From contig NZ_JAAALO010000011.1 in assembly GCF_009908295.1 (NCBI RefSeq), forward strand, positions 1-64,000: a stretch of DNA of 64,000 nucleotides, in the 5' to 3' direction. Shown here piece by piece: positions 18,562 through 47,681 of this stretch. Position 1 is the stretch's first letter. Each line of letters begins with the position of its first letter. Made by a program: the position numbers and the translations under genes. The notes beneath the pieces are model-generated. The model saw only the letters and a program-made list of their open reading frames with translations, ran no database searches and had not been told where the DNA came from. This DNA is from Micromonospora rubida (lineage in GTDB: Bacteria > Actinomycetota > Actinomycetes > Mycobacteriales > Micromonosporaceae).

Positions 18562-18645
18562 TGTCCGAGGGGGGACTTGAACCCCCACGCCCTTTACGGG
18601 CACTAGCACCTCAAGCTAGCGCGTCTGCCATTCCGCCACCCGGAC
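18562..18645 (-). tRNA. tRNA-Leu (anticodon GAG)
   Basis: The 84-nt minus-strand gene folds as a class II tRNA. The acceptor stem GTCCGGG pairs with CTCGGAC (one G-T), followed by discriminator A. The anticodon stem CTAGC/GCTAG surrounds loop TTGAGGT with anticodon GAG, there is a long variable arm, and a T-arm with TTCAAGT. CCA is not encoded. Its 3' end faces the recombinase gene. Confidence 0.95.
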
Positions 18646-45467: not shown

Positions 45468-45594
45468 CGTCGATCACCGTACCCGCCGGCCGGCGTGGCG
45501 GCCCGCCGGTCCGCGTCACCGCAGGTGACCGCCGGCTGGTCCCGTACCCCGGGATCGGGTTCCGGGCGGGCGGCGGCGCGCGTAGGGTGATCGC

Positions 45595-45654
45595 ATGCCC
45601 GCGCACCCGACCTGCTGGTGGCCCGCCGACCCGGCGGCCCACCCCCGCGCGTAG
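45595..45654 (+). CDS. trpL: Trp-rich leader peptide of an attenuator
   Basis: This 19-codon frame, MPAHPTCWWPADPAAHPRA, has tandem Trp codons (45616-45621). It starts 13 bases after an AGGG ribosome-like site and ends 95 bases before the anthranilate synthase gene. Trp codons make up about one percent of residues in general, so two adjacent ones in a short leader before a tryptophan-pathway type gene strongly indicate a trp attenuator. An attenuator of this kind is known before the fused trpEG gene of Streptomyces venezuelae. Confidence 0.78.
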   Translation: MPAHPTCWWPADPAAHPRA

Positions 45655-45749
45655 CTTCCCACGCGGCCGCCCGACAAGGCGGTCGCCGGTTCTCTCCCCC
45701 GGCCCAGGGCCGCCCCGACGGCGACGCCCGGCCACCAGGAGAAACCCCG
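45655..45749 (+). promoter_or_regulatory. probable trp attenuator stem-loops
   Basis: After the leader stop, GGCCGCC (about 45671-45677) can pair with GGCGGTC (45684-45690), and CGGCC with GGCCG (about 45702-45714) further on. The G/C-rich segments offer alternative pairings as expected for ribosome-mediated attenuation. I did not resolve the exact antiterminator. A ribosome site (AGGAGA) lies at 45737-45742. Confidence 0.5.
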
Positions 45750-47681
45750 ATGACCAGCCCGCACGACCTGCTCGCCGCCGTCGCCCGCGGCGTCGACCCC
45801 GGCCCCTTCGCGCTCGTGCGCCGCGAGGGCGCCGACCATCTTGAGCTTTTCACCGGCACGGTACGCCCCGTCGACCGGCTCGCCGACGTCCCGCTGCCCG
45901 ACGGGCCGCCCGGCCCCCGCACCCTGGCGCTGGTGCCCTACCGGCAGGTCACCGAGCGCGGGTTCGACTGCGTGGACGACGGCACCCCGCTGGAGTGCCT
46001 GGAGATCGCCGGGCACGCCCGGTTGCCCCTGGCCGACGCGCTCGCCGCCCTGCCCGACGCCCCGGTGGCCACCGCCGACGCCGGGTTCGACATCGCCGAT
46101 GCCGAGTACGCCGACATCGTCGCCCGGGTGCTCGCCGAGGAGATCGGCCGGGGCGAGGGGGCGAACTTCGTCATCCACCGCACCCTGCGGGCCGCCGTGC
46201 AGGGCTCCCCGCTGGTCGCCGCCCTGGCCGCGCTGCGCCGGTTGCTGCTGCGCGAGCGCGGCGCGTACTGGACGTTCGTGGTGCACACCGGGACGCGGAT
46301 CCTGGTCGGGGCCAGCCCGGAGCGGCACGTCAGCGTCGACGACGGGCTGGTCATGATGAACCCGATCAGCGGCACCTTCCGGCACGGCGGGACGGCGGAC
46401 CGGGCGGCGCTGCTGCGCTTCCTCACCGACCCGAAGGAGGTCGACGAGCTGTACATGGTGCTCGACGAGGAGCTGAAGATGATGGCCCGCGTCGCCGAGC
46501 GCGGCGGGCAGGTCGTCGGCCCGTACCTCAAGGAGATGTCCCACCTGGCGCACACCGAGTACCTGCTAGCCGGGCGGGGCCGCCTGGACGTGCGGGACGT
46601 GCTGCGGGAGACGATGTTCGCCCCCACCGTCACCGGCAGCCCGATGGAGAACGCCTGCCGGGTGATCGCCCGGCACGAGACGACCGGGCGGCGCTACTAC
46701 GCCGGGGTGCTGGCCCTGCTGGGCCGCGACGACGCCGGCCGGCAGACCCTGGACGCGCCGATCCTGATCCGGACCGCCGAGATCTCCCCCGCCGGCGAGC
46801 TGCGGGTGCCGGTCGGGGCGACCCTGGTGCGTCACTCCACGCCCTCCGGCGAGGTGGCCGAGACCCACGCCAAGGCCGCCGGGGTGCTGGCCGCCCTCGG
46901 CCTGCGCCCCGACGCCCCCGACCCGGGTCCCGGCCCGGTCGAGCGGCTCGCCGACGACCCGGAGGTACGGGCGGCGCTGGCCGCCCGCAACGCCCCGCTG
47001 GCCCGGTTCTGGCTGGATCAGCGGCCCACGGGGGCAGTGGCGCTGCCCGGGCTGACCGGCCGCCGGGCGCTGATCGTGGACGGCGAGGACACCTTCACCG
47101 GCATGCTCGCCCACCAGCTACGCGCCCTCGGGCTGGCCGTCGAGCTGACCCCGTGGCACGCCGCCGGCCCCACCGCCGGGTACGACCTGGTGGTGGCCGG
47201 GCCCGGCCCGGGCGACCCCCGGGCGGTGGAGCAGCCGAAGATGGCCGCCCTGCGCGGACTGCTCGCCGGGCGGCTCGCCGCCGCCGCCCCCACCCTGGCG
47301 GTGTGCCTGAGCCACCAACTCCTGGCCGGGCTGCTCGGCCTGCCGCTGCACCGGCGGGACGCGCCCTACCAGGGGTTGCAGCGGGACGTGATGGTCTTCG
47401 GAGCCAGCCGGCGGGTCGGGTTCTACTCCACCTTCACCGCCCTCGCCGACGCCGACCGGGTGGCCACCCCGTACGGGGCGGTGGAGCTGTCCCGCGACCC
47501 GGACGACCGCGCGGTGCACGCGCTGCGCGGGCCCGGCTTCGCCGGGGTGCAGTTCCACCCCGAGTCGGTGCTCAGCCGCGACGGGCTCGCGGTCCTGGCC
47601 GACGTGCTCGCCCACCTGCTATCGGTGCCGTCGGGCCGCTCGCCGGCCGGGCTGGGGCATGGGCCGACGCAACGGGGGTAG
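45750..47681 (+). CDS. fused anthranilate synthase (or ADIC synthase), TrpEG/PhzE type
   Basis: This 643-residue protein joins a chorismate-binding TrpE-like domain (about 1-420) and a class I glutamine amidotransferase (about 430-630). The first domain includes NFVIHRTLRAAVQG, GASPERHVSV, NPISGTFRHGG and ETMFAPTVTGSPMEN. The second has GPGPGDP, nucleophile Cys519 in AVCLSHQLL and His603/Glu605 in VQFHPES. It makes anthranilate for tryptophan or a secondary metabolite, or 2-amino-2-deoxyisochorismate as in PhzE; residues alone do not decide. Length fits both types. The Trp-codon leader supports tryptophan-dependent control and favours anthranilate. No other trp or phenazine genes adjoin it. 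Confidence 0.9.
   Translation: MTSPHDLLAAVARGVDPGPFALVRREGADHLELFTGTVRPVDRLADVPLPDGPPGPRTLALVPYRQVTERGFDCVDDGTPLECLEIAGHARLPLADALAALPDAPVATADAGFDIADAEYADIVARVLAEEIGRGEGANFVIHRTLRAAVQGSPLVAALAALRRLLLRERGAYWTFVVHTGTRILVGASPERHVSVDDGLVMMNPISGTFRHGGTADRAALLRFLTDPKEVDELYMVLDEELKMMARVAERGGQVVGPYLKEMSHLAHTEYLLAGRGRLDVRDVLRETMFAPTVTGSPMENACRVIARHETTGRRYYAGVLALLGRDDAGRQTLDAPILIRTAEISPAGELRVPVGATLVRHSTPSGEVAETHAKAAGVLAALGLRPDAPDPGPGPVERLADDPEVRAALAARNAPLARFWLDQRPTGAVALPGLTGRRALIVDGEDTFTGMLAHQLRALGLAVELTPWHAAGPTAGYDLVVAGPGPGDPRAVEQPKMAALRGLLAGRLAAAAPTLAVCLSHQLLAGLLGLPLHRRDAPYQGLQRDVMVFGASRRVGFYSTFTALADADRVATPYGAVELSRDPDDRAVHALRGPGFAGVQFHPESVLSRDGLAVLADVLAHLLSVPSGRSPAGLGHGPTQRG

Follow-up and report, generated by a model that had tools for sequence, protein, structure and literature searches.

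A tryptophan-codon leader of attenuator type, lacking a U-tract, precedes a fused TrpEG-type gene in Micromonospora rubida

A short leader with adjacent tryptophan codons precedes a fused chorismate-binding/glutamine amidotransferase gene in a 64,000-nucleotide stretch of Micromonospora rubida DNA (here called the window), and the two very probably form a Trp-responsive switch, a ribosome-mediated attenuator acting on an anthranilate synthase. The element acts in the manner of a trp attenuator, a type already known, and is a homologue of the attenuator of Streptomyces. It is a variant within a wide actinomycete element rather than a plain classical attenuator, because the U-tract that marks the classical intrinsic-terminator attenuator was looked for in the window element and is absent from it.

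The first-pass annotation of this DNA had proposed a 19-codon frame with adjacent Trp codons ahead of the gene, and direct reading bears this out. The trpL-like leader peptide gene (45595 to 45654, plus strand; MPAHPTCWWPADPAAHPRA) starts with ATG at 45595, carries tandem Trp codons as codons 8 and 9 (45616 to 45621), and closes with TAG at 45652 to 45654 after 19 codons. A -10 hexamer, TAGGGT (45583 to 45588, plus strand), ends 6 nt before the leader ATG. A weak, possible -35, TTCCGG (45560 to 45565, plus strand), lies 17 nt 5' of the -10, with TTCC partly conserved in the genus alignment; a consensus sigma-70 scan of the region returned no site, this candidate included. The Shine-Dalgarno sequence of the fused gene, AGGAG, is read directly at 45737 to 45741 on the plus strand. 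The 5' neighbor of the leader region is a divergent FGGY carbohydrate kinase gene, and a Pfam search of five neighboring products identifies the fused enzyme as the sole member of the Trp pathway among them. The leader region has no match in Rfam 15 at E values up to 5; the only Rfam match in the window at gathering scores is a tRNA gene (18562 to 18645, minus strand).

The leader is conserved well beyond this locus. An orthologue at least about 78% identical is present in 36 of the 37 genus genomes searched (the M. rubida genome included), and every one of these 36 orthologues keeps the 19-codon leader with adjacent Trp codons (W-W), so the conservation that the first-pass annotation called for in relatives is there. 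The best homologue in the remaining genome (G017) is just 44% identical; a further genus genome (G200) has neither an orthologue match at E 1e-60 nor the RNA element. Homologue searches matched 111 of 150 family genomes and 109 of 296 class genomes, and a subset of these matches was examined for a leader with a detector that requires a W-W open reading frame of 5 to 40 amino acids together with a TAnnnT hexamer 5 to 9 nt before its start. A W-W leader with such a close -10 occurs within 350 nt of the match at 172 of 223 homologous loci (L034 and L055 being the same gene). The -10 is nearly invariant among W-W leaders, with TAnnnT 5 to 9 nt before the start in 172 of 173. Its distance from the start takes only the values 6, 7, or 8 nt (50, 115, and 7 leaders, respectively), and a 4-base Shine-Dalgarno-like motif stands ahead of the leader start in 1 of these 172. 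Because of this narrow spacing and the near absence of a Shine-Dalgarno-like motif, the leaders are predicted to be leaderless; in the window, the spacing would place the 5' end of the mRNA at or next to the ATG at 45595.

In a tree of 222 loci, made by a quick method and containing several long branches, 171 leader-bearing sequences fall within one clade of 180 (support, 98), to which the fused gene of the window belongs. Outside that clade, W-W plus -10 occurs in none of 42 sequences and W-W alone in one (L147). Five members of the clade (L043, L200, L203, L204, and L207) have no clear W-W leader. A sixth without a detected leader, L124, carries the element further upstream, as seen via L282 from the same organism; leader loss in L124/L282, a reading we had entertained, is wrong, the element sitting beyond the 350-nt scan. 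In L167 and L178 the leader is reduced to a single Trp codon, and L260 has W-R in place of W-W; in all three, the RNA segments are still recognizable by eye or by model. L206 is a trpEG homologue without a leader in a genome whose trpS (L359) carries the element. In the family to which L206/L359, L358, and L360 belong, control seems to have moved between trpEG and trpS genes.

Could the leader be a chance open reading frame in GC-rich DNA? W-W open reading frames alone do arise in 14 of 3,000 sequences made by dinucleotide shuffling of the upstream region in the window and 59 times in 6,690 shuffles over the 223 homologues, and the fold of the window is modest, just 1.9 standard deviations below shuffles (z, -1.92; equaled or bettered by 7 of 200 shuffles). 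We dropped this single-window folding score as an argument, as too weak. Against chance, the full detector fires in 0 of 3,000 and 0 of 6,690 shuffles, the leader is conserved at 172 loci with W-W kept by all 36 genus orthologues, and related leaders stand ahead of other Trp genes (see below). The possibility of a chance frame is therefore negligible, and the case for the leader is one of conservation across sequences more than of single-window folding.

Alternative G/C stems had likewise been suggested at first pass, and competing GC-rich segments are indeed found. Segment 1 (45616 to 45627, plus strand) comprises the Trp codons and CCCGCC and pairs with segment 2, a helix present in the window fold. 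Segment 2 (45633 to 45639, plus strand), the putative antiterminator half GGCGGCC, begins just past the edge of a ribosome halted on the second of the two Trp codons. Segment 3, GCGGCCGCC (45663 to 45671, plus strand), is common to the candidate antiterminator (2:3) and terminator (3:4) hairpins, and segment 4, GGCGGTCGC (45678 to 45686, plus strand), forms the 3' half of a terminator-like hairpin of 9 bp and -17.8 kcal/mol. The tail 3' of this hairpin, CGGTTCTCTCCC (45687 to 45698, plus strand), is not a U-tract and can partly pair with the Shine-Dalgarno region.

We examined covariation in 82 leaders chosen for diversity, aligned with MAFFT without structure and compared with 500 shuffles. 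Helix 3:4 has 97.0% of cells paired versus 91.3% in shuffles, and its 33 double-changed cells, the compensatory changes, are reached by 0 of 500 shuffles; these changes are confined to 3 pairs, a number matched by 62 of 500 shuffles. For helix 2:3, 96.1% of cells are paired versus 95.1% in shuffles, with 5 double-changed cells, all in one pair. Helix 1:2 is paired in 94.6% versus 93.8%, and its covariation score is reached by 457 of 500 shuffles. As judged from the alignment, helix 3:4 is well supported, helix 2:3 moderately so, and helix 1:2 by complementarity alone.

The position of the segments relative to the ribosome is more uniform than the leaders themselves. The segments are recognized by pattern in 165 of the 172 leaders; of the 7 failures, four belong to a single family whose hairpin is different. 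For these 165 leaders, we placed the A site of a stalled ribosome on the last Trp codon and assumed that its 3' edge lies 16 nt away from the first base in the P site. The start of segment 2 then falls at -1 to +2 nt (median, +1) relative to this edge, even as leader length ranges from 10 to 28 residues. When the transcript is cut off ahead of segment 4, helix 2:3 dominates in 165 of 165 leaders with the ribosome stalled and in 15 of 165 with none. At the stop codon, the ribosome reaches between 7 and 41 nt beyond the first base of segment 2 and covers its core in all 165, which rules out helix 2:3 by construction; in the 51 leaders that have at most 14 residues, the rule is the same with a smaller margin (7 to 20 nt). 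By computation, then, helices 1:2, 2:3, and 3:4 are mutually exclusive, with ribosome position as the selector.

These features suggest the following mechanism. Transcription would begin at the leader ATG or next to it, and the leaderless 5' end would be loaded directly with a ribosome. Under scarcity of Trp-tRNA, this ribosome would halt on the W-W codons and mask segment 1 while leaving segment 2 clear by about 1 nt; segment 2 would pair with nascent segment 3, block helix 3:4, and let transcription enter the gene. With ample Trp-tRNA, the ribosome would run on to the stop codon and mask segment 2, helix 3:4 would form, and the gene would be off, with early transcription termination as the most likely means of shutting it off.

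The last step is where the window element departs from the classical scheme. A U-tract follows hairpin 3:4 in none of the 44 nearest sequences (77% identity or more; 43 from the genus, with one gene present twice, plus L057 from a neighboring genus), and a terminator scan of the window returned no site either. Since the genus lacks the U-tract, we can only infer how the gene is switched off. We somewhat favor intrinsic transcription termination at 3:4 over a Rho-linked or a translational block. The missing U-tract would also suit termination that depends on Rho, or on another factor acting at a hairpin without a U-tract, while the leader ribosome covers or uncovers the RNA; the available part of PMC1262725 suggests Rho for cys leaders of actinobacteria that have no terminator. 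This route, which concerns the last step only, is unlikely given that 3:4 is the best-supported helix, with its 97.0% of cells paired, and that 34 of 121 more distant sequences do have hairpin 3:4 with a U-tract.

Translational control, again of the last step only, is still less probable. In this reading, the Shine-Dalgarno region would be sequestered by the tail, in a pairing that the leader ribosome would open or close. Besides the absent U-tract, the window fold does pair the tail (45687 to 45698) with the Shine-Dalgarno region (45737 to 45746). Among the 44 nearest sequences, the duplex reaches -11.25 kcal/mol versus -7.99 kcal/mol with shuffled tails, 17 of the 44 fall in the best 5%, and a sequence's own tail and Shine-Dalgarno region pair better than swapped partners in 30 of 44. 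However, 23 of 113 other sequences are also in the best 5%, so the complementarity is not particular to U-less leaders; L013 and L026 do not have it, and related sequences are not independent. Moreover, equilibrium folding of the 44 sequences leaves the Shine-Dalgarno sequence equally buried in the ON and OFF states (median, 0.204 unpaired in both), freer when ON in 1 of 44 and freer when OFF in 3 of 44. With the modeled states alike, we rejected Shine-Dalgarno sequestration as the switch and keep it as a rival for the final step. If the attenuator reading is right, Micromonospora, having lost the U-tract, provides a test case made by nature for whether U-less hairpins terminate in high-GC bacteria.

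The gene under this leader (45750 to 47681, plus strand) encodes a 643-residue protein with PF00425 and PF00117 in one chain, in agreement with the fused anthranilate/ADIC-type synthase named at first pass, and is probably TrpEG-type. Its closest named homologue is from M. haikouensis (91% identity, in a listing that may omit the protein's own or very near records). Because proteins of this architecture include phenazine-type ADIC synthases, whose leader would be unrelated to anthranilate supply, we compared gene neighborhoods. Among 80 named homologues, 61 have a leader and 19 have none detected. No PhzD neighbor occurs at any of the 61 leader-bearing loci (in flanks extending at most 3 kb to either side, less at some loci), and a DAHP synthase related to PhzC lies near 8 of them; 17 of the 19 loci without a detected leader have a PhzD neighbor. 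In the remaining two, L260 (69% identical) and L282 (65%), the RNA element is present. The leader-bearing and PhzD-neighbored sets do not overlap among named homologues. The window itself has no homologue of PhzB, PhzC, PhzD, PhzF, or PhzG (tblastn, E 1e-10), so the gene has no phzD next to it, as a PhzE/ADIC synthase gene would in a phenazine cluster or one related to it. The best PhzD match of the genome is 34% identical (E 9.4e-9). A PHZA_PHZB search of the M. rubida genome gave no match, but its control likewise matched nowhere, so this negative carries no weight.

For a phenazine-type enzyme speak the nearest solved structure by sequence, which is PhzE (3r74; E 2e-173), and the scores against NCBIfam anthranilate synthase models, far below the cut-offs as with Pseudomonas aeruginosa PhzE. 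Weighed against the neighborhood data and against papers citing Ashenafi et al. 2015, which in their available parts call the fused S. venezuelae enzyme an anthranilate synthase, we regard an ADIC synthase as highly improbable. The separation by PhzD neighbor favors an anthranilate synthase, from which we infer the reaction. The argument made at first pass for an anthranilate rather than a phenazine role is thus supported by PhzD counts of 0 of 61 versus 17 of 19, by the lack of Phz homologues in the window, and by leaders before trpS, trpD, and anthranilate synthase genes.

Two residues of the fused enzyme track the same division, in a set where some species occur twice: Pro at position 337 (P337; codon at 46758 to 46760) in 227 of 233 leader-bearing versus 0 of 21 PhzD-neighbored sequences, and Leu at position 273 (L273; 46566 to 46568) in 233 of 233 versus 1 of 21. 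The canonical TrpE of the same genome has Ala at the position of P337, and H265, a further candidate, is common to P. aeruginosa PhzE, so that these residues may be mere marks of lineage rather than determinants of ADIC versus anthranilate formation. According to the part of PMC5958127 available, TrpEG and PhzE protein sequences give no hint as to why one reaches anthranilate and the other stops at ADIC. If our assignment is true, the leader provides an independent functional label within the TrpEG/PhzE family, pointing to residues to swap.

The genome encodes a second, canonical TrpE of 517 amino acids (L230:8323-9876, contig C34), which scores 826.3 bits against NF010086 (cut-off, 693) and lies near trpC, trpB, and trpA, genes identified by eye. 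No W-W leader was found before this trpE, and with such a leader-free canonical gene also present, the fused gene need not be the main anthranilate synthase. The canonical enzyme contains FLLESAE, with the LLES motif that we take to be the Trp feedback motif; HLELFTG stands at apparently the same place in the fused enzyme. The two may therefore be under complementary control, the canonical TrpE inhibited by Trp and the fused enzyme attenuated by it.

The element also occurs away from trpEG. We built a covariance model, R1, from 47 trpEG leaders only, the window's own among them, and its score of 73.3 bits for the window element is thus a match by construction. This is the only strong match in the M. 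rubida genome: the next best (L366; 26.9 bits) lacks leader architecture and is a chance match, and three more score 18.7 to 19.5 bits. Among class genomes the model has a match at E 1e-3 in 44 of 148, and among family genomes in 136 of 150; both tallies are upper bounds because three matches near E 1e-4 (L364, L365, and L369; E 1.0e-4 to 2.1e-4), tried as Trp leaders, proved to be chance. We examined 39 matches away from trpEG, 19 of 25 from the class list and 20 hand-picked for spread among the family matches listed. Thirty-six of the 39 lie directly ahead of a Trp gene: trpS in 23, trpD in 8, and a TIGR01815-type anthranilate synthase in 5. Gene identity rests on eight representatives above the NCBIfam cut-off, the others being assigned by similarity to them. 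The class list contributes 16 of its 19, and the 20 examined among the family matches listed all do so (trpS in 12, with L385 truncated; trpD in 7; anthranilate synthase in 1). One family-list leader, L393, has a single Trp codon. In L382 a W-W leader is followed by trpD as the first gene and, about 1.1 kb downstream, by a 44% trpEG homologue, the two genes apparently forming one operon.

Because a model trained on trpEG alone also finds Trp-codon leaders before trpS, trpD, and anthranilate synthase genes, a response to Trp is strongly suggested. Leaders before trpS of Streptomyces have been published (PMC1262725 and PMC8079986, in the parts available). We found no published leader ahead of trpD or of the TIGR01815-type (clade-3) anthranilate synthase in a literature that leaves aside Korolev et al. 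2015, on Trp attenuators of Actinobacteria; those leaders might be new, for which this is weak evidence. If the reading is true, a searchable RNA element, whose window copy has no Rfam 15 match, marks Trp-controlled genes across actinomycetes.

Taken together, and as a tentative, rather doubtful proposal, a single movable, actinomycete-wide, leaderless W-W element with a footprint-set three-segment switch could regulate trpEG as well as trpS, trpD, and a fused but unrelated anthranilate synthase. Its Micromonospora form would have lost the U-tract and adopted another OFF route (U-less or Rho-linked termination, or Shine-Dalgarno pairing), while governing the one anthranilate synthase of the cell that has no Trp feedback motif.

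A trp attenuator of Streptomyces venezuelae was reportedly described by Lin, Paradkar, and Vining in 1998. Predicted trp attenuators of Streptomyces and Corynebacterium were given by Seliverstov et al. in 2005 (PMC1262725), and, as far as the available part of the source goes, these and the S. venezuelae one resemble the window in having tandem Trp codons, competing hairpins, and a trp gene downstream. The same part describes conserved complementary triples, gGCC-rGCy-GGCC, and a poly-U after every terminator, in contrast to the 44 nearest relatives of the window, none of which has one. In Streptomyces lividans, according to the available part of PMC8079986, TrpL1 (MFAHSTRNWWWTAHPAAH) precedes trpE and TrpL2 (MMTRTCTQLWRAA) precedes trpS. 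TrpL1 is near-identical to our leaders L193 and L233 (MFAHSTQNWWWTAHPAAH), and TrpL2 resembles MTTRTCTQLWWAA ahead of trpS in L351 and L354. Three Trp codons and a stretch enriched in uridine distinguish TrpL1 from the window leader, which has two such codons and a tail that is not U-rich. Both S. lividans leaders are leaderless by RNA-seq in that source, where several leader peptides of this organism are so reported, whereas the leaderless start in the window is predicted from promoter spacing alone. Finally, PhzE, the ADIC synthase of PDB entries 3r74 to 3r76, shares the fused architecture of the window enzyme and is its nearest solved structure, but the window enzyme differs from it in having a Trp leader, no PhzD neighbor, and a different residue pattern at P337 and L273.
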